Source: Catellatospora coxensis (lineage in GTDB: Bacteria > Actinomycetota > Actinomycetes > Mycobacteriales > Micromonosporaceae). Taken from it: a stretch of DNA of 58,462 nt. Where the stretch lies: positions 1 through 58,462 of the forward strand of contig NZ_BONI01000062.1 in assembly GCF_016862635.1 (NCBI RefSeq), read 5' to 3'. The translations under genes were made by a program, and so were the position numbers. Shown here in pieces: positions 25,849 to 47,995 of the stretch. The notes under the pieces were generated by a model. That model was not told the origin of the DNA. It worked only from the letters and a program-made list of their open reading frames with translations, and ran no database searches. Position 1 is the first letter of the stretch. Each line of letters starts with the position of its first letter.

Positions 25849-25909
25849 CGACTTGCCAGGCACATGGCCGAAAGCGGCTTCAAGATACGCACATGTGCCT
25901 GGCGAGTCG
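25849..25909. terminator. Long nested hairpin after the three-gene operon
   Basis: Arms 25849-25866 and 25892-25909 pair over 18 bp with one G-T, and the loop holds a second hairpin GCCG-AAAG-CGGC (25867-25878). It lies about 60 nt past the stop of the 1114-aa gene and just upstream of mqnC, ending the operon before mqnC. Confidence 0.65.
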
Positions 25910-25967: not shown

Positions 25968-28900
25968 TCACAGGCGGATGACGTCGCTGTAGACCAGGCG
26001 GCCGCCGCCGGCGTGCTGCTCCTGCTCCACGATGACCAGCCGGTACGCCCGCAGCAGGCGCGACGTGGGCAGCCGCAGCGTGCCCGTCCACAGCGTCGTC
26101 CCGCCGGGCTGCGCGGCGGCGGTGAGGCGCTGCCCGTCGGCCGGGCCGACCACGGTCCAGTCCAGGTCGCCCGGGTTGAGCCCGGACGCCGACTGCACCA
26201 GCACCGACACCGCGTTCGGCTGGCCCGGCACCGCGGCGGTGCCCGACGGCGAGCGCCCTGCCACGGTCACCGTCACCTTGGTCAGGTCCAGCAGTTCCGT
26301 CACCGCGGTCGCGGTGCGGTCCGGGGCGAGCTGCACCCACTCCACCTGGGCCACCGGCGACAGGTGCAGCCCGTCCAGCGAGTTCGGCTGGTAGCGGGCC
26401 AGCACCAGGCTGACGAACGGCTGGTGCTGACTGCCCGGCGGCAGCACGATGTCGCAGGCCCAGCGCTTGCGTTCGGTGTCGAAGACGACGTCGTGCGCGG
26501 CGACGGAGACCGTCCGCTCGGGCAGCTCGACCGGCACGATCCCCGCCACCCGAGCCTTGGCCAGCGTGAACTCGGCCGCGGCGGGGAACTCGGTGGGCGT
26601 CGCGGTGCGTGCGGTCACCGGGTCGGCGGCCCGCCGGGTCACGATCGTGCGCAGCTGCTCGTCGTCGCCGGACATGCTGCCGTCGGCCAGCACGACGGCG
26701 AGCTGCTCGCCCACGCCGGAGGAGTACCACCCGCGCTCCAGGAAGACGCGCAGGCCGCCGCCGGAGCGCGCCCTGGTCCGGGTGCGGCCGAGGTTGGCCG
26801 ACGACTCGGTCCAGCCGAAGGTCGGCACGATCCAGGCCGGCTTCGGCGGCAGCGGCCGGGCGGTGCTCGGCAGGTCCACCACCAGCGGCTGCCCGGCACT
26901 CGGCCGGCTCACCGGCAGCGCCACCAGCGCGACCTCGACGGTGGCGTCGTTCGGGATGGCGCCGCTCGGGATGCGCGCGATGGTGCCCTGGGCCTCGTTC
27001 ACCGTGTAGTCGATGGTCCGGCGGTAGGTGAGCGTGCCGTCCAGCGAGCGCACCACATCCGTGCCGGGGGCGATGCCGGCGCGCGCGACCTGCGTCGCCG
27101 TGCTGCCGCGCAGCACGACCCGGCCGCGCTGGGCGAAGTACTCCATGTACCGGGTGGTGCCGGTCAGCGCGTAGCTGACCACGCGGCGGCGGGTGTCGCC
27201 GAAACCCTGCGTCGCGGTGAAGCGCACCTGCGCACCGGTCGCCGGGTCGGGCGCGTAACCGACGGTCAACTCCGGCAACGGCCTACCTTCGGCGGCCAGC
27301 ACCTGCGGGATCGCCCGCCGGACCCGGTTCTCCGGCCCGGCCGGCTGCTCGATCGGGTCGTCGAGCAGGTCGGTCCAGGTCGCGGTCATGGTCAGCGTGC
27401 CGGTGCTGGGCCGGTGCACGGTCGCGGCGACCGCGAGATCCTGCCGGTGCGAACCCGGCTCGCGCGGCTCGTCGGCGTCGACGAAGGCGACCGTGTCGAG
27501 CACCGGCGCGGTCACCGGCACCCGCACCGCGTTGACCAGGGTCAGCATCCGGTACGGGGTGATCTGCCAGCACTGCCCCGCGGCCGTGTCGGCGCGTACC
27601 GCCGCGATCGTCGACGCGGACGCGCCGCTGTCGGCCAGCCAGCCCAAGTGGCCCAGCAGGGCCAGGTCGGCGTTGTTGAGGTAGCTGCTCAACCGCACCT
27701 CGCGCCGCTCGCCGCGGGGCACCGGCACGGTCAGCACCCGCAGCAGCGCGTTCCACTGCGGCGTGCCCGTGCCGTCGATCAGCTGGAGCCGGGCCGCGCG
27801 CACGTTGGGCCAGGACTGCCCCGCCACCGGGTCGAAGGCCACCTTGACCAGGCCACCGGGCAGCCCGGCCAGCGCGAACCCGCGCGAGATCGGGTCGGCG
27901 AGCCAGCTCACCGGCAGCGTGGTGCCCGAGTAGTAGCGCTGACCCGCCCGGTTCGGGTCGGCGGTGCCGACGGTGGCCAGGTCCGCGGCGTCGCGCTGGG
28001 CGATCAGCGAGTACCGGCCGGGGTCCGGCACGCCCTGCGCGTTGTCGAACCCGCCGTGCTCCTCGCACAGCTGCTGGTTGACCTTCGGCGGCGCGAGGTG
28101 CCGGGTCGAGCCGGTGCCCAGGATCGGCGCAAGGATGCTGCCGATGATGCCGCCGGGCCACGGGTCGGGCCGGATCACCAGCGTCTCCAGCGACTCGCCC
28201 TCGGTCATCGGGGCCTGCGCGACGACCACGGGCGACGAGATCGGCTCGAAGCGCAGGTACTTCGCGGGCGGCGCGGACCCGGCGGGCACCGCCCGGCTGA
28301 AGTCGGCCGAGGCCGGCTGCAGCGGCTCGACGTGGCCGGCGGCGTTGACGATGCGCAGCTGGAAGCGGTACCCGACGCCGAACCGCAGCCGCGGCAGCGA
28401 ACCCGGCTTGGCGGTGAAGCCGACGGAGAACCCGGGCAGCCCCGGGCCCTCGGGCGCGGACGGCACCCGGCCCTCGTCCTCGGTGACCACCGGCTGGCCC
28501 GGCCGCGGGGCGACCAGGCTCCACCCGGTCCAGCGCACCAGCGACTGGTGCAGGTACAGCGTGTCGTCCGGCTCGGCCTGGTCGCGGGCGGTCACCGCCA
28601 TCGAGATCGGACCCTCGTCGTCGTGCGTGAAGGTCGTCCCGCCCGGCAGCCGGTACGTGCCCCGGCGGGCGCACAGCGAGTGCCAGCGCCCGGTGCGGTC
28701 GTCCCACACGTCGAGCACGTGGCCGAGCACCGCGTGCCGGGCGTCGGTGACCGTCTTGTCGTCCGACGCCGACACCAGGTCCTTGCCCGACTCCAGCCGG
28801 TTCCGCAGGTCCACGGCGCGGCTCTGCTGGGCGACGCAGATACCCGCGTTGCGCAGCGACGGCAGCGACAGCCGGTTCGGCAGCGACACCGGCGGCAGCT

Positions 28901-29312
28901 CGGGCGGGTTCTTGGCCGCCGCTGCGGCGTTCTCGCGCTCGGCGTTGACGACCTGGCGGGCCAGGTCGAGCAGGCGCACGCCGGCGCTGTCGGTGTCCAG
29001 TTCGGTCACCGACAGTTTGGTGGCGGTGGCGTCGACGCGGCCGTCGGCGAACAGCGAGAACCGGGTCGGCGACAGGTACGCGGGCACCGTCACCGCGGGC
29101 CGGTCGACCTGGGCGTCCGGGAGCCTGGTGGACCAGGTCGGCTTGGCTTTGACGGTCACCGGGCCGGCGTCGGCCGGGTCGATGCCCGACCCGGCGAGGT
29201 CGACCTCGATGACGCGGATGACGCCGAGGCGGCGCAGCATGACCGGGTAGTCGGCCATCGCCGCGAGGGCGCCCTGCACGTCGAAGGTGGGCTGCTGCGG
29301 CACTGATCTCAC
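25968..29312 (-). CDS. Very large uncharacterised protein (1114 aa), third gene of unknown operon
   Basis: I do not recognise this protein. It starts MRSVPQQPTFDVQGALAAMA at a GTG that overlaps the TIG-domain gene by 4 bp, so the two are translationally coupled. It has no signal peptide and no transmembrane helix. The composition is Pro/Val/Arg rich with many short beta-like runs, suggesting serial beta domains. Recognisable spots are DDRTGRWHSLCARRGTY near residue 220, an Fn3-like strand pair LPRLRFGVGYRFQLRIVNAAGH near 325, two long regions with aromatic residues, and a Trp/Tyr-containing C-terminus LRAYRLVIVEQEQ. No catalytic motif is evident. Codon use equals the neighbours. A structural or assembly role with the other two proteins is inference only. 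Confidence 0.85.
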   Translation of the reverse strand: MRSVPQQPTFDVQGALAAMADYPVMLRRLGVIRVIEVDLAGSGIDPADAGPVTVKAKPTWSTRLPDAQVDRPAVTVPAYLSPTRFSLFADGRVDATATKLSVTELDTDSAGVRLLDLARQVVNAERENAAAAAKNPPELPPVSLPNRLSLPSLRNAGICVAQQSRAVDLRNRLESGKDLVSASDDKTVTDARHAVLGHVLDVWDDRTGRWHSLCARRGTYRLPGGTTFTHDDEGPISMAVTARDQAEPDDTLYLHQSLVRWTGWSLVAPRPGQPVVTEDEGRVPSAPEGPGLPGFSVGFTAKPGSLPRLRFGVGYRFQLRIVNAAGHVEPLQPASADFSRAVPAGSAPPAKYLRFEPISSPVVVAQAPMTEGESLETLVIRPDPWPGGIIGSILAPILGTGSTRHLAPPKVNQQLCEEHGGFDNAQGVPDPGRYSLIAQRDAADLATVGTADPNRAGQRYYSGTTLPVSWLADPISRGFALAGLPGGLVKVAFDPVAGQSWPNVRAARLQLIDGTGTPQWNALLRVLTVPVPRGERREVRLSSYLNNADLALLGHLGWLADSGASASTIAAVRADTAAGQCWQITPYRMLTLVNAVRVPVTAPVLDTVAFVDADEPREPGSHRQDLAVAATVHRPSTGTLTMTATWTDLLDDPIEQPAGPENRVRRAIPQVLAAEGRPLPELTVGYAPDPATGAQVRFTATQGFGDTRRRVVSYALTGTTRYMEYFAQRGRVVLRGSTATQVARAGIAPGTDVVRSLDGTLTYRRTIDYTVNEAQGTIARIPSGAIPNDATVEVALVALPVSRPSAGQPLVVDLPSTARPLPPKPAWIVPTFGWTESSANLGRTRTRARSGGGLRVFLERGWYSSGVGEQLAVVLADGSMSGDDEQLRTIVTRRAADPVTARTATPTEFPAAAEFTLAKARVAGIVPVELPERTVSVAAHDVVFDTERKRWACDIVLPPGSQHQPFVSLVLARYQPNSLDGLHLSPVAQVEWVQLAPDRTATAVTELLDLTKVTVTVAGRSPSGTAAVPGQPNAVSVLVQSASGLNPGDLDWTVVGPADGQRLTAAAQPGGTTLWTGTLRLPTSRLLRAYRLVIVEQEQHAGGGRLVYSDVIRL

Positions 29313-30190
29313 CTGGGTCCGGGTACGTAGTAGGTGAACTTGGCGTCGGGCGAGACCGGGCTGGCGCCCCTGTTGGTCTCGACCCGCACGTCGACCTCGA
29401 CGTCGAGGAAGCCCGCGCGTGGCGAGCGGCACTTGAGGGTCTCCTCGTCGAGCACCTCGACCTCGGTGGCCAGGTTGCTGCCGAAGAAGACCCGGATCGG
29501 CTCGAAGAAGTTCTCGCCGGTGATCGTCACCACGGTGCGCCCGCCGACGACCCCGGTGTCCGGATCCACGTTCGTGACCACGGGCGGCTCCGTCGGCAGG
29601 GGCGGGGGCGCGGAACCGGGGCGCGACCCGTAGATGAACTCCAGCGGCGCGAAAGCCGAGAACGGGTCGTCGGCGTCCTCCTCGGGACCCTCCGACCACC
29701 GATCCTGCAGCTCGCCCAGGTTGACCGGGTCGAGCGCCTGCTTGAGCGCCTTGAACACGTCGTCGTCCTGCAGCTCGGTGAGCGTCGGGAACTGCGTACG
29801 CGAACCCGTCAGCACCTTGGTGTGCAGCTCCTTGACGAACTCCACAACCTTGGCCACCGGGTACGAGTAGATCCGCGCTTCCGACCGGTCCACCGGCACG
29901 TACGGCGTGACCTGCATGGTGTGCGGGAACAGCTGCTCCCAGGTGGCGTCGTCGTAGCCGGCCGCGGGCACGACCTCGGTGCCGGTGAGCACCGCCTCGG
30001 TGTCGCCCTGCTTGATGGTCACCTGCCAGGTGGGCCGGATGTCCGGCCAGTCCCGCACGTCGGGCCAGTTGTCCAGGTCGTCGGCCGCGTCACCGCCCAG
30101 CCGCGGGCTCACCAGCACGGCGATGCGCACCTTGCTGCCCGTGATGCCATCCGGCAGCGGCGTGCACAGGAACGTCTCGGTGAAGGGCAT
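29309..30190 (-). CDS. TIG/IPT-domain protein, second gene of unknown operon
   Basis: A 293-aa protein whose last 95 residues form an immunoglobulin-like TIG/IPT domain: PPVVTNVDPDTGVVGGRTVV, then TITGENFFEPIRVFFGSN and a final beta strand AKFTYYVPGPR. The first 190 residues (FLCTPLPDGITGSKVRIAVLV, then a Trp- and Asp-rich stretch NWPDVRDWPDIRPTW) match nothing I know. No signal peptide is seen. ATG at 30190 has GAGGAG 8 nt upstream. It lies 16 nt after the 1094-aa gene and overlaps the 1114-aa gene by 4 bp. TIG domains usually serve in binding or in spacing surface structures; here the partner proteins are unknown. Confidence 0.88.
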   Translation of the reverse strand: MPFTETFLCTPLPDGITGSKVRIAVLVSPRLGGDAADDLDNWPDVRDWPDIRPTWQVTIKQGDTEAVLTGTEVVPAAGYDDATWEQLFPHTMQVTPYVPVDRSEARIYSYPVAKVVEFVKELHTKVLTGSRTQFPTLTELQDDDVFKALKQALDPVNLGELQDRWSEGPEEDADDPFSAFAPLEFIYGSRPGSAPPPLPTEPPVVTNVDPDTGVVGGRTVVTITGENFFEPIRVFFGSNLATEVEVLDEETLKCRSPRAGFLDVEVDVRVETNRGASPVSPDAKFTYYVPGPR

Positions 30191-30206
30191 GTCCCACTCT
30201 CCTCGC

Positions 30207-33200
30207 TCAGGCGGTGGCGAACGCCGCGCAGTACGCGGCCCAGTCGCCGGCGGTGATCTGCTGGCCGAACGTCGGGTCGGGCCCGCCCGCGAACTCCTTG
30301 CGCATGGACACGCTCACGTCCGCGCTGAACAGCAGCACCTCGACCCGGATGGTCAGCGTCGCCTCGCCCTGCACCCGGCCCGGCGGGGCGGGCAGCGGCT
30401 CCGGCACGGTCTCCTTGAAATACGTCAGGCCCAGGTAGAACTCGACCGTCACGTGGATCAGCCCGAGCACGTCCAGCTTGCCCACCGCGCGTACGTAGCC
30501 GGTGATGATGAACGTCTCCCCGGCCGGCGCGGCGTTGCTGCCGTCGGCCGACTGGCGCTGGGCGTACTTGAAGTAGATGCCGGCCATGATGGACACCGAG
30601 CCGCTGGCCACCCCGAAGTCCAGCGCGACCGCCGCGCCGAACTCCAGCGCGCCCTCGATCTGCTGCACCCCTCGGGTGCCCATGCCCAGCGCCAGGAAAC
30701 CGCCGCCGCCGAACGCGCTCACGGTGACCTGGAACGGGTTCTCCCGGGTCGCGAAGCTGAACGTCAGGATCGCCTGGTCGCCGTTGAACGGCAGGTCGAA
30801 CAGGATGCCGAGGGACATGTTGCGGATCAGCACCACGCCGATCGCCACGGCCGGCAGCGCGATGGTGAGGCCCGCGGTGACGCCGCGCGGGCTGATGTCC
30901 AGCTTCACCCCGCCGGGCAGCGACGGCAGCAGGCTGCGCAGGTCGTTCAGGAAGCGCAGGTCGCCCTGGAACTCCACCGCGCCGAGCTGGATGTCGATGC
31001 TGGGCTTCGCGCCGTCGCGGCTCTCGAAGCGCAGCTTGGCGACCCGCTGGCTGATGAAGCCGCGCGCTCCGGTGCCGACGAAGTTGAGCGTGAAGTCGCG
31101 CAGCTCGCCGGTGACCTTGCTGCTGGTCGCGCCGCTGGACAGGTCGGTGTGGAACTCGGCCTTCAGCTCCAGGCGCTTGTCCGCCTCGGCCGTGGACGGC
31201 ACGAACAGGTTGTCCAGTGCCGTACGCAGCAACGGTTTCCAGGTGATGACGGTGTCGACGGCCTGCGCGGTGCGCACCGTGACCACCTTGGGCACGTGGT
31301 CGCCCTCCAGCGCCCGCGGCTGCGAGATCACCGGGGCGTTGCCGTCCACCACCTCACGCAGCGGGATGCCGCCGAGCAGGGTGATGTCGGGCAGCTTGAA
31401 GTACTCGTCGGGCCGGAAGTCGCCCTTGGCGATCGCGACCGGGTCGGCGATCGGGCCGAACGCCCGGGACAGGCCCTGCACCGACAGCTGCGGCGCGGCC
31501 AGCCCGCCACCGGTCTGCTGGGGCACGGCGAGCTTCGGCGGGGCGGCGATGGTCGCCCACACCTCACCGGCGTTCGCGGTGCCGCCGAAGGCGCCGGCCA
31601 GGTACTCGGCGGCGTACTCGATCGCGGCGGTGCCGCCCGCCTCGCCGCCGACGGAGTCCAGCGCCTCCAGGCGTACCTGCGACTTCGCGGCCTTGGTCGC
31701 GGCGGCCCGGCGCCCGGCGGCGACCGGCGCGGCCACCGGAAGCGCCGCGAGGTAGGGCACATCGACGGTGCCCATCGTCGGGAACGCCCCGAGCAGCCGC
31801 TTCGTGTACAGGTCCATCGAGGTCAGCGTGCCGTCGGTCGGCTCGGCGAGGATCTCCACGTCGAACGTGGGCAGCGCCGGGTCCTCGGGGCGGGCGTTCG
31901 GGGGCAGGTCGGCGGCCTTCACCGGCGCGACGAACGCCAGCCGCTGCCCGGCCAGGTGCAGGGTGCGGTCTCCCGCGCCGGTCCCGTTGTAGGCGTTGAC
32001 GATCTCCACCATCTTCGCGCGGTCGTACGCCGTGCCCGTCTGCTGCGGTGTGGCCGGATCGTCGGGGATGTTCGGGTCGTCCAGGTCGCCCGCCGGCACC
32101 CAGATCATCGGCAGGTCGGCGGTGACCACCCGGTCGGTCCGGTCCATGAGCTGCAGCTGGTAGCGCAGGCGGGTGCGGTCGCCGTTGTCGTCGCGCACCT
32201 CGATCCAGGTCGCGCCGCCGGCGCCGATCGGCGTCTGGTCGGCCAGCAGCGGCGGGGAGACCAGGGTGGTCGTCACCGCCTTCACGAAGGCCAGGTTGCG
32301 GCCGTCGTTGCGCTGGTCGGGACGGTTGAACACGATCTCGGGCTCGCGCACCACGATGAAGATGCGCTTGCGCAGGATGGCGATGCCGTCGTCGATGACC
32401 CGCTCGGTGATCTTCACGCGGGTGGCCCGGAATCCGAACGGGAACAGGAAACCCGGCTCCTCGACCTTCACGTAGTTGTCGCGGCCGAGGTAGGAACGGT
32501 GCCGCCAGGCCACCACGTCGTCGCGGGTCGGCCAGGCCCCGGTGATGTCCAGGCTCGCGCCCATCGCCGACACCAGCAGCAGCGAGGCCTGCGCCGGGAT
32601 GTTCACGCCGTCGGTGGGCGTGGTGGTGGCGTCGACGAGCCTGGCCCGGTCGGCCGGGGTGAGCGCGACGGTGTTCTCCGCCAGCGCCCACGGCGCACCG
32701 GTGACCGGCCCGTCCCGGTCGCTGTTCCAGATGGCGCGTACGGGCACCGGCACCGGCCGCTCGTCGGCGGAGCCGTTGGGCAGGCGCTGCGCGATCGCGC
32801 GGGCGTGCCACAGCTCGCTGCGCCCGTTGCGGGTCACCGGGATCCGCGACGCGGTGAACGCGGCGCTCGCGGGCGGGGACAGCAGCAGCCGGTAGGGCGC
32901 CTCGATGGCGGTGACCCCGGGGGCGGGCTGCGCGGACGGGGTGGCCGTGCCGTTGGCCGCGGCGCTGACGGCCAGCGGGAACGCGACCAGGTTCAGCAGC
33001 GTGCTCAGGTTGTACAGCACCGGCGCGGAGCCGGGCGGCACGGTGAAGACCAGCCGGCTCGGCCCGGACACCAGCGCGGGCACCGGGTCGTCCGGCGCGT
33101 CCACGCCGCCGCCGTCGTCGTAGAACGCCTGCTCCAGCAGGCTCTGCGGGCCCAGGCCGAGCACGATCTGCCCGGCGGTGGACGAGTCGGTCAGCACCAG

Positions 33201-33491
33201 GCGGGCGGGCTGGCCGAAGCTCGGCGCGCGCACCTCCAGGTTGACGAACGAGAAGCCGAGCAGCAGCCCGTCGTCGCCGCGCGCCACCAGCAGGCTGCCC
33301 GGTGGCGGCACCGACTCCAGCAGCGGGCCGAGCAGGTTCTCCAGCAGCGCCAGCGGCTGCCGGGGGATGCCGTCCAGGCCCAGCTTCGCGGCGAGTGCCA
33401 CACCGCCGCCCGCGGCGACCAGGCCGAGCAGCTTGCGTCGCGCGAACGTGGTCGGCGCCGCGGCTTCGTCGCGAACTTCTTCCTCGGGCAT
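30207..33491 (-). CDS. Very large Tat-type protein (1094 aa), first gene of unknown operon
   Basis: I do not recognise this protein. Residues 16-36 (FARRKLLGLVAAGGGVALAA) look like a twin-arginine signal with RR at 18-19, although the spacing and missing AxA site leave anchoring possible. The middle (about 60-650) has many Val/Asp/Arg-rich beta-like runs. Around 575-600 lies an Ala/Lys/Arg linker. The last 330 residues alternate hydrophobic and small residues (LEFGAAVALDFGVASGSVSI, VTVEFYLGLTYFKETVP), as in beta-barrel or beta-solenoid proteins. No enzymatic motif is visible. ATG at 33491 has only a weak ribosome site. It heads a three-gene operon with the TIG-domain and 1114-aa genes, and a palindrome-rich region precedes it. 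Confidence 0.87.
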   Translation of the reverse strand: MPEEEVRDEAAAPTTFARRKLLGLVAAGGGVALAAKLGLDGIPRQPLALLENLLGPLLESVPPPGSLLVARGDDGLLLGFSFVNLEVRAPSFGQPARLVLTDSSTAGQIVLGLGPQSLLEQAFYDDGGGVDAPDDPVPALVSGPSRLVFTVPPGSAPVLYNLSTLLNLVAFPLAVSAAANGTATPSAQPAPGVTAIEAPYRLLLSPPASAAFTASRIPVTRNGRSELWHARAIAQRLPNGSADERPVPVPVRAIWNSDRDGPVTGAPWALAENTVALTPADRARLVDATTTPTDGVNIPAQASLLLVSAMGASLDITGAWPTRDDVVAWRHRSYLGRDNYVKVEEPGFLFPFGFRATRVKITERVIDDGIAILRKRIFIVVREPEIVFNRPDQRNDGRNLAFVKAVTTTLVSPPLLADQTPIGAGGATWIEVRDDNGDRTRLRYQLQLMDRTDRVVTADLPMIWVPAGDLDDPNIPDDPATPQQTGTAYDRAKMVEIVNAYNGTGAGDRTLHLAGQRLAFVAPVKAADLPPNARPEDPALPTFDVEILAEPTDGTLTSMDLYTKRLLGAFPTMGTVDVPYLAALPVAAPVAAGRRAAATKAAKSQVRLEALDSVGGEAGGTAAIEYAAEYLAGAFGGTANAGEVWATIAAPPKLAVPQQTGGGLAAPQLSVQGLSRAFGPIADPVAIAKGDFRPDEYFKLPDITLLGGIPLREVVDGNAPVISQPRALEGDHVPKVVTVRTAQAVDTVITWKPLLRTALDNLFVPSTAEADKRLELKAEFHTDLSSGATSSKVTGELRDFTLNFVGTGARGFISQRVAKLRFESRDGAKPSIDIQLGAVEFQGDLRFLNDLRSLLPSLPGGVKLDISPRGVTAGLTIALPAVAIGVVLIRNMSLGILFDLPFNGDQAILTFSFATRENPFQVTVSAFGGGGFLALGMGTRGVQQIEGALEFGAAVALDFGVASGSVSIMAGIYFKYAQRQSADGSNAAPAGETFIITGYVRAVGKLDVLGLIHVTVEFYLGLTYFKETVPEPLPAPPGRVQGEATLTIRVEVLLFSADVSVSMRKEFAGGPDPTFGQQITAGDWAAYCAAFATA

Positions 33492-46796: not shown

Positions 46797-47729
46797 TCAG
46801 GCCGGGACCTTGTTCGCGGCCTCGACGATCGCGCGGATCAGGTCGACGACGCGGGGGCCCCAGCGCGAGGCGATGTCGTCGTCCAGCGCGATGACCTGGC
46901 CCTTGCTGACGGCGGTCATGCCCGCCCAGCCGGCGCGTGCCTTCACGCTGTCCAGGCTCTGCTGGCAGCACTTGGTGTCGGCCAGGAAGATCAGGTCGGG
47001 GTTCGACTTGACCAGCGACTCGGCGGTGAGCTGCGGGTATCCGCTGCCCTTGGTGTCGGCGGCGTCGGCCACGTTCTTCAGCCCGGCCAGCTCGAACAGC
47101 GAGCCGATGAACGTCTTCGAGGTCACCGAGTACAGCGTCGGGTCCAGCTCGTAGTAGTAGGACAGCGGGGTCGCACGCTTCGGCAGGTCCTTGACCAGCT
47201 TGGCGATGTCGTCCTTCATCTTCTGGGTGAGCGCGGCCGCCTCGGCCTTGTGCCCGGTCAGCTCGCCCAGCTCGGCGAGCTGCTGGTACGTGTCCTCCAG
47301 CGTGACCGCGGCGGGGGCCACGTACACCGGGATCTTGAGGGTGGTCAGCTGGGCGACGACGTTGTTGGCGTCGGTGCTGAGCACCACCAGGTCGGGGCTC
47401 TTGGCCGCGACGGCCTCGGCGTTGGGCTGGAAGCCGGACAGCTCCGTCTTCGGCGCGTCCGCCGGGAAGTTCGAGTTGTCGTCGACGGCGACGACCTGGC
47501 CGCCGGCGCCGAGCGCGAAGAGCATCTCGGTCGTGGTCGGCGACAGCGAAACGATCTTCACGGGCTGCGCGGGCAGGGTCACCGAGCCGACGGTCACCGG
47601 GTACGCGGCAGCGGCGCCGGACGCGGCAGGGGTCGCCGGGTCGTTCGTGGCGCAGGCCGCGAGCGCGGCCACCAGGCCGGCGGCGGCCAGCGCGCCGAGC
47701 GCACGGCGGGACAGGAAACGGGTACGCAC
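46797..47729 (-). CDS. btuF: ABC transporter substrate-binding lipoprotein, BtuF-like
   Basis: A 310-aa class III binding protein with a lipoprotein signal (FLSRRALGALAAAGLVAALA, lipobox Cys26 in LAAC), VKIVSLSPTTTEMLFALGAG near the N-terminus and a long helix-linked second lobe. GTG at 47729 has GGAGG 4 nt upstream. The family also takes haem and ferri-siderophores, but the cobalamin riboswitch in the leader argues for corrinoids. Confidence 0.9.
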   Translation of the reverse strand: MRTRFLSRRALGALAAAGLVAALAACATNDPATPAASGAAAAYPVTVGSVTLPAQPVKIVSLSPTTTEMLFALGAGGQVVAVDDNSNFPADAPKTELSGFQPNAEAVAAKSPDLVVLSTDANNVVAQLTTLKIPVYVAPAAVTLEDTYQQLAELGELTGHKAEAAALTQKMKDDIAKLVKDLPKRATPLSYYYELDPTLYSVTSKTFIGSLFELAGLKNVADAADTKGSGYPQLTAESLVKSNPDLIFLADTKCCQQSLDSVKARAGWAGMTAVSKGQVIALDDDIASRWGPRVVDLIRAIVEAANKVPA

Positions 47730-47819
47730 TGATCCTCCTATCGGTCGAGGCAGGTCCTTCGCCGACAGGGCCCGATCAGGTGGGGCAGCCCGGTCCGCGA
47801 GACGCCCTTCCTCGAGAGC

Positions 47820-47955
47820 GTGGTTCGCGACTGCCGCAGGCGACCTGGCTCGCCCACCCGAGAAGATCGAGTGGGATCACAGTTGCGGGACAGCGCCGGG
47901 TTCGCACCGGCTTCGCTGCGGGACAGTCAGGCGACACGCTAATACACACCCGTGC
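47820..47955 (-). ncRNA. Cobalamin (B12) riboswitch
   Basis: Read on the minus strand, the leader contains GAAGCCGGTGCGAACCCGGC, then GCTGTCCCGCAACTGTGA, and later GAGCCAGGTCGCCTGC, which follow the conserved core of cobalamin riboswitches in order. It lies about 90 nt upstream of the binding-protein start. When adenosylcobalamin or a related corrinoid binds, importer expression should fall. Exact ends are approximate. Confidence 0.88.
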
Positions 47956-47995
47956 CGATGCTCACGACGCGGAGTGGAGGATGTGCGCAGGCTCA

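Follow-up and report, generated by a model that had tools for sequence, protein, structure and literature searches.

The twin-arginine translocation (Tat) pathway is known to carry proteins that have no signal of their own. In the account given in PMC4273604, one Tat signal-bearing subunit of Escherichia coli HybOC and of the three-subunit PaoABC carries its signal-less partners, while Campylobacter jejuni is described as having additional TatA paralogues, TatA1 and TatA2 (PMC4148689), and a review places Tat cargo at up to 150 kDa in its account (PMC6708511). The subject of the present analysis is a pair of genes for giant proteins, A and B, in a 58,462-nucleotide stretch of Catellatospora coxensis DNA from contig NZ_BONI01000062.1 (this whole stretch is referred to as the window), where the B component is encoded by two genes, T and B. 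Like PaoABC and HybOC, the pair consists of one subunit with a Tat signal and adjacent partner genes without one, which is the gene arrangement of a hitchhiker. Unlike those cofactor enzymes, A and B are very large, are predicted to be mostly beta and have no match among enzyme families. As in C. jejuni, a genome harboring the pair can contain more than one TatA, but here the extra TatA is encoded beside the giant candidate cargo. It is proposed, with a probability of roughly 60%, that A and B are obligate partners in one giant protein complex which would be put together in the cytoplasm and exported by Tat, with B as the hitchhiker.

Association of the two genes is consistent across a wide range of bacteria. 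Searching one genome per species, 84,980 species in total, gave 478 stretches with a relative of B, of which the best 80, representing 79 loci, were kept. In 72 of the 79, A was detected immediately upstream of B. Both genes were called in 64 of these, always on the same strand with A first (64/64); for the remaining 8, A likewise shares the strand of B and is found a short way upstream of it. In the seven loci where A was not detected, B either begins no more than about 450 bases from a contig end (L030, L032, L034, L040, L045 and L076) or is a 300-amino-acid piece (L084). Of 296 Actinomycetota genomes, 8 have B, and exactly these 8 also have A, adjacent to it; one of them (G150) is a weak and partial match. 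The distance matrices of A and B are correlated at r=0.93 over 78 loci, a value that 0 of 1000 permutations reached. A first-pass annotation of this DNA, made from its letters, had read the fixed order and coupling of the genes as one machine; the homologues do co-occur elsewhere, in the same order, in line with that suggestion. The 79 loci presumably span at least 10 phyla, and these are taken to include Actinomycetota, Chloroflexota, Bacillota, Pseudomonadota, Acidobacteriota/Aminicenantes, Armatimonadota-like groups, Chlorobi, Balneolota, Verrucomicrobia, Myxococcota and Desulfobacterota-type lineages. At E<=1e-3, 633 homologues of B and 68 of A were found.

The A protein of the window has a twin-arginine start, FARRKLLGLVAAGGGVALAAK, as the first-pass annotation had recognised, with the RR followed by a moderately hydrophobic stretch as in Tat substrates, and the RR near the start is retained in the consensus of the 68-row A alignment. 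Across the family, a script flagged Tat signals in 52 of 93 A proteins (35 without, 6 cut) and its calls were then curated by eye: L053, L091, L096, L097, L100, L106 and L109 were removed because their RR lay outside a signal context, L051 was added, and second copies from counted genomes (L098, L105) and a fragment (L103) were left out. The curated count is 45 of 84 assessable loci with a Tat signal on A, with 6 of the 90 loci cut, and both carriers and non-carriers are spread across the tree. A strongly hydrophobic N-terminal stretch, on the other hand, is absent from 72 of the 73 B proteins examined (loci within L012-L096, with the truncated or over-extended L020, L022, L030, L032, L034, L040, L045, L076 and L084 omitted beforehand), and the single protein above the threshold, L059, probably owes this to over-extension of its N-terminus by open reading frame (ORF) calling. 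By eye, the window B likewise has no visible export signal at its N-terminus, agreeing with the earlier description of it as a chain of beta domains without one.

The genetic tie of the pair to Tat export is strong. A TatA gene adjoins the pair in five loci; all five match PF02416 above the cut-off, and in all five A is of the Tat type. The gene lies 3' of B on Sinorhizobium meliloti plasmid pC (L017, annotated as tatA), in a Symbiobacteriaceae locus (L037, at 12 bases) and in Lentzea (L043, at the end of B), and 5' of A in CSMAG_1221 (L060, at 227 bases) and Zipacnadia (L067, at 359 bases). No further TatA was found in the window or in the 99 loci, which total 1.85 Mb. A model trained on four of the five adjacent genes finds only those five, and an independent model, drawn from eight TatA-family genes lying away from the pairs in three TatA-adjacent genomes and the window genome, likewise recovered these five alone at E<=1. 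The density of TatA in five genomes gives a chance expectation of about 0.04 within 500 bp of 99 pairs; because four of those genomes were chosen for having a TatA beside the pair, this density is if anything an overestimate. As L060 and L067 are close relatives, the five loci amount to about four adjacency events. The adjacent TatA of Lentzea is additional to another TatA beside tatC in that genome. The window genome has both TatA and TatC. Of 11 genomes searched for TatC, 10 gave a match, 9 of these above the cut-off; the weak match stands at a contig end, and the miss is a metagenome-assembled genome. The suggestion of a surface or exported assembly, made in the first-pass annotation, stays a suggestion, now supported by the TatA genes at these five loci.

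In the proposed mechanism, A and B would fold and bind one another in the cytoplasm, and the pre-assembled complex would then cross the cytoplasmic membrane via Tat, with A supplying the signal, B and T travelling as hitchhikers and a private TatA sometimes assisting. Many of the A signals have no obvious cleavage site by eye, and A may therefore remain tethered to the outer face of the membrane. As a guess from the predicted folds, the amphipathic strand array of A might serve outside the cell as a barrel or trough that takes up an amphiphilic ligand, or else as a contact surface, and the Ig/FN3 and TIG domains of B might act as an arm or scaffold. In lineages without the signal, the complex would probably stay inside or exit by another route. 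A dedicated Tat route for giant folded cargo, with a widespread and horizontally moving pair exported in one piece and some lineages having their own TatA specialised for outsize cargo, is a more tentative extension which falls somewhat short of even odds.

Several observations weigh against export of the complex by Tat. No recognisable Tat signal is present on A in 39 of the 84 assessable loci, where other signal types were checked by hydrophobicity alone, and 10 of the 45 Tat-positive loci come from one Aminicenantes clade. Curated Tat models match the family weakly, with Pfam TAT_signal found in 1 and NCBIfam TIGR01409 in 2 of 24 diverse A proteins, and TatA adjacency is rare, at 5 of 99 loci with two of them closely related. 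The loci themselves are a non-random sample, being the best-scoring 79 from 478 relatives, and the structure predictions reach a pTM of 0.72 for A and 0.71 for B, with domain placement uncertain. Size is a further difficulty. The three window proteins together amount to 266 kDa, and for the 36 Tat-signal loci in which a single A and a B were called, the two together range from 252 to 523 kDa, A alone exceeding 150 kDa in 11 (masses from the ORF calls of this analysis, signal included), which is far above the figure quoted for Tat. Either the cargo that Tat can carry is much larger than the quoted figure, perhaps given an extra TatA, or only A is transported, or the signal serves some other purpose.

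The signal-less A proteins, which include whole clades of Pseudomonadota and Bacillota and some Streptomyces-type loci, together with the near absence of signals from B, would also fit a complex that is cytoplasmic or released by cell lysis, with an RR motif that is either a dispensable part of the N-terminus or an anchor to the inner side of the membrane. Set against this are the Tat-type signals across the tree and the TatA genes beside five pairs, all with Tat-type A, and such a complex is considered unlikely. The lack of a visible signal on B is also consistent with export of A alone, B being a cytoplasmic folding or Tat-proofreading partner, and Tat substrates often have dedicated chaperones. 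Known Tat chaperones, however, are small and helical, while B is about the size of A, is predicted to be Ig/FN3-like and carries TIG (in the split clade described below) or Big_3_5 (in 2 of 24 diverse members), both of them common in proteins found outside the cell; a chaperone role is considered less probable still. Export of A and B as one complex is retained as the preferred reading.

The three-gene form in the window is a derived state of a two-component system, A plus B. The genes had been described earlier as a three-gene unit; that they form one coupled unit holds, but the components are two, T and B being halves of a single protein elsewhere, with a length of some 1300 amino acids or more. 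In Streptomyces, Diaphorobacter and Rhizobium plasmids, the A homologue is followed by a single protein of 1075–1650 amino acids as annotated. Its later part matches the window B in all three, and in Rhizobium and Diaphorobacter its first 140–170 residues match T (Table 1); the similarity of T to the Streptomyces B, at E 0.025, is not significant. Reading the window against the B profile, T occupies model positions 22–171 and B 228–1255, and most other loci have one continuous frame. The split form is shared by the window, Catellatospora citrea, Catelliglobosispora and Herbihabitans, and the B tree groups these together as a single clade with support 1.0. At the split point lies the IPT/TIG domain that had been recognised at the end of T; Catelliglobosispora T has one such domain and Herbihabitans T four. 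Pfam finds TIG in none of 24 diverse B proteins, and the domains therefore accompany the fission of B. The system resembles IPT/TIG and Big_3_5 Ig-like proteins in these domains, and differs from them in that TIG and Big_3_5 are no more than add-on domains of T and B.

The predicted C-terminus of A consists of long amphipathic strands in series which resemble outer-membrane barrels, as the earlier barrel-like description had it. By Foldseek, this array aligns to CymA and OmpG, and also to SlpA and LptD, with low TM-scores (0.05–0.11 of the query), while microsomal triglyceride transfer protein is a weaker structural match. Unlike outer-membrane barrels, the array is part of a much larger protein whose family also occurs in Gram-positives, part of it with a Tat signal. 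The window A is of the Tat rather than the Sec type, and members are found in Catellatospora, Paenibacillus, Neobacillus and Streptomyces, genera that lack an outer membrane. The conserved tail pattern of A (Table 1) is present in 76 of 91 C-termini, two of the 91 being second copies from the same genome. As a side observation, A on a Rhizobium plasmid is in two pieces (L015 14149-18472).

The pair might also be a secreted weapon in two parts, such as a toxin, an adhesin or a lectin-like agent, in place of a complex with a structural or ligand-binding role. This would suit the patchy distribution and some neighbours seen at single loci: hemopexin repeats (L041), patatin-like proteins (L015 as annotated, and L016) and, as judged by eye, a subtilase-like ORF (L035) and repeat ORFs. 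No recurrent immunity-gene-like partner is found among the neighbour families, however, and A has a C-terminal end that is conserved, not variable, from phylum to phylum; a weapon is considered improbable, slightly more so than a chaperone role for B.

Apart from TIG, A, T and B convincingly match no named family. None of Pfam, NCBIfam, PHROGs and PADLOC includes the family, as the first-pass annotation had supposed for family membership in general, while the proposed export route, that of a Tat hitchhiker, is a known kind of mechanism. A and B have no family above the cut-off in Pfam or NCBIfam, five proteins gave 0 PADLOC families at E<=0.1, and PHROGs, which has no cut-offs, gave the window proteins a best E of 0.004, to a family of unknown function. 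Scans of 24 diverse A and 24 diverse B proteins with Pfam and NCBIfam found Big_3_5 in 2 B and CBM_4_9 in 1 A, weak tail-tube (6/24) and SprA (2/24) matches in B at E 0.001–0.006, and single weak NCBIfam matches in A, such as an anti-phage family at 1e-4 in one member; none of these matches indicates a function. Searching the PDB by sequence, with single proteins and with profiles, gave TIG-containing chains for T and nothing else below E 0.7. No whole-length fold match was found in Foldseek PDB (A, B), Foldseek viral (A) or VIA (A, B), where absence from the VIA list excludes nothing. For B the top Foldseek match is alpha-2-macroglobulin, but with a TM of 0.08, and B otherwise matches generic Ig/FN3; membership of the alpha-2-macroglobulin family was rejected, the 24 diverse B proteins matching no Pfam family except Big_3_5 in 2, and an anti-phage defence system was rejected on the PADLOC result. 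No publication on the A-B pair was seen among the matches listed in open-access literature. A remnant of a phage tail or contractile injection system, to which the weak tail-tube similarity of B might point (18.4 bits in the window B against a cut-off of 60; E down to 0.001 in diverse members), is strongly disfavoured, with no tail family matched above its cut-off, no match to A in 50,697 phage records, one B relative in the viral contig collection, and no tail gene families among the recurrent neighbours.

The features of the window are collected in Table 1. The sizes of the three tightly spaced minus-strand genes are those first reported, as are the 16-nt spacing between A and T and the 4-nt overlap (GTGA) of T and B. 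Compared with C. citrea, amino-acid identity is 88% for A, 85% for T and 92% for B, with dN/dS of 0.36, 0.38 and 0.22, respectively; in view of these values, A, T and B are real, functional genes under purifying selection. A promoter and terminator of their own had also been claimed, of which the hairpin 3' of B stands, though without a T-run; its core pattern occurs once in the window genome. Terminator-like hairpins number 4 in 8 kb against 1.5 expected. The palindromic promoter proved weak, with two 9-nt inverted repeats 5' of A and no sigma-70-like site found. In C. citrea (L104), a different hairpin occupies the same position between B and mqnC by eye, as though the terminator had been replaced.

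Table 1. Position and description of the features of the A-T-B locus in the window.
Feature	Position	Strand	Description
Gene A	30207..33491	-	1094 aa (115 kDa); giant beta-rich protein, Tat-type start
Twin-arginine signal region of A	33378..33452	-	Residues 14-38, RR at 18-19
C-terminal strand array of A	30276..30914	-	Residues 860-1072; amphipathic, predicted barrel or trough-like
Conserved C-terminal tail of A	30210..30245	-	Pattern W..[YH][CALIV].[AVS][FY]
Gene T	29309..30190	-	293 aa (32 kDa); N-terminal part of B as its own gene, plus TIG domain
T region matching the N-terminus of undivided B in other bacteria	29687..30190	-	Residues 1-168; E 1e-12 to Rhizobium B, 3e-7 to Diaphorobacter B; model positions 4-160
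IPT/TIG domain of T, at the split point	29330..29584	-	Residues 203-287; PF01833, E 1.2e-11, above cut-off
Gene B	25968..29312	-	1114 aa (119 kDa); GTG start, predicted Ig/FN3-like beta-domain chain, no visible signal
Small beta domain in B	26907..27095	-	Residues 740-802; sub-threshold similarity to phage tail-tube proteins, 18.4 bits vs cut-off 60
Stem-loop between B and mqnC, possible terminator	25849..25909	-	18-nt arms, 94% complementary, 25-nt loop

The A-T-B cassette, of 7.8 kb in the window and 7.7 kb in C. citrea, is inserted between paaE and mqnC. Both flanking genes are present in 11 of 11 Catellatospora genomes and B in 4 of 11, two of these (G002, G008) holding distant copies elsewhere. 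Of the nine congeners without a cassette at the site, six have the flanking genes close together: 11 bases separate the paaE stop from the GTG taken as the mqnC start in G004, G006 and G010, and the genes lie within about 145 bases in G001, G002 and G007. The remaining three (G005, G008, G009) have 1.6–2.4 kb of other sequence between them. No integrase or transposase was found among the cassette ORFs. By eye, the cassette-free sites of G002 and G007 (L114, L115) show a palindrome with arms around a GTGCAGTTTCCCCGAAACTGCA-like sequence.

Outside Catellatospora, the neighbours of the pair are mostly unconserved. The recurrent adjacent families are TatA, BTAD/LuxR/STAND-type regulators, a protein of about 400 amino acids and, in Aminicenantes, vertically inherited neighbours; no others were found. 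A loose cluster of large regulators of this type adjoins the pair in nine loci (L019, L028, L034, L050, L051, L061, L073, L079, L086), to which little weight is given because such regulators are a common gene type. The related proteins of about 400 amino acids stand directly after B in four actinobacterial loci (L020, L022, L023, L033); the L033 protein has no Pfam family and that of L023 a sub-threshold Ig-like match. In three Streptomyces-type loci (L038 13924-16023, L039 13912-15786 and L080 13893-15761), a third gene of 620–700 amino acids follows closely after B, overlapping it in 2 of 3, and the L038 copy ends in an Ig-like Big_3_5 domain; A has no Tat signal in any of the three. On S. 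meliloti plasmid pC (L017 8212-22903), the pair members, of 3052 and 1766 amino acids, lie with tatA between type IV secretion genes and traA. Elsewhere in the window, a Cobalamin riboswitch (Rfam RF00174, 39.2 bits) at 47818-47966 on the minus strand stands just 5' of a gene for a BtuF-like substrate-binding protein (46797-47729) and represents ordinary B12 uptake control.

A pair of giant proteins that keeps a strict order over what are presumably at least 10 phyla, and is absent from four family libraries, marks a considerable gap in what is known of bacteria. Natural experiments on the system are provided by lineages that have or lack the signal and by those whose B is whole or split. The adjacent TatA genes offer a genetic handle on the long-standing question of how TatA fits cargo of very different size. 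If the pair is true Tat cargo, it would go well beyond the 150 kDa quoted in that review's account (PMC6708511).

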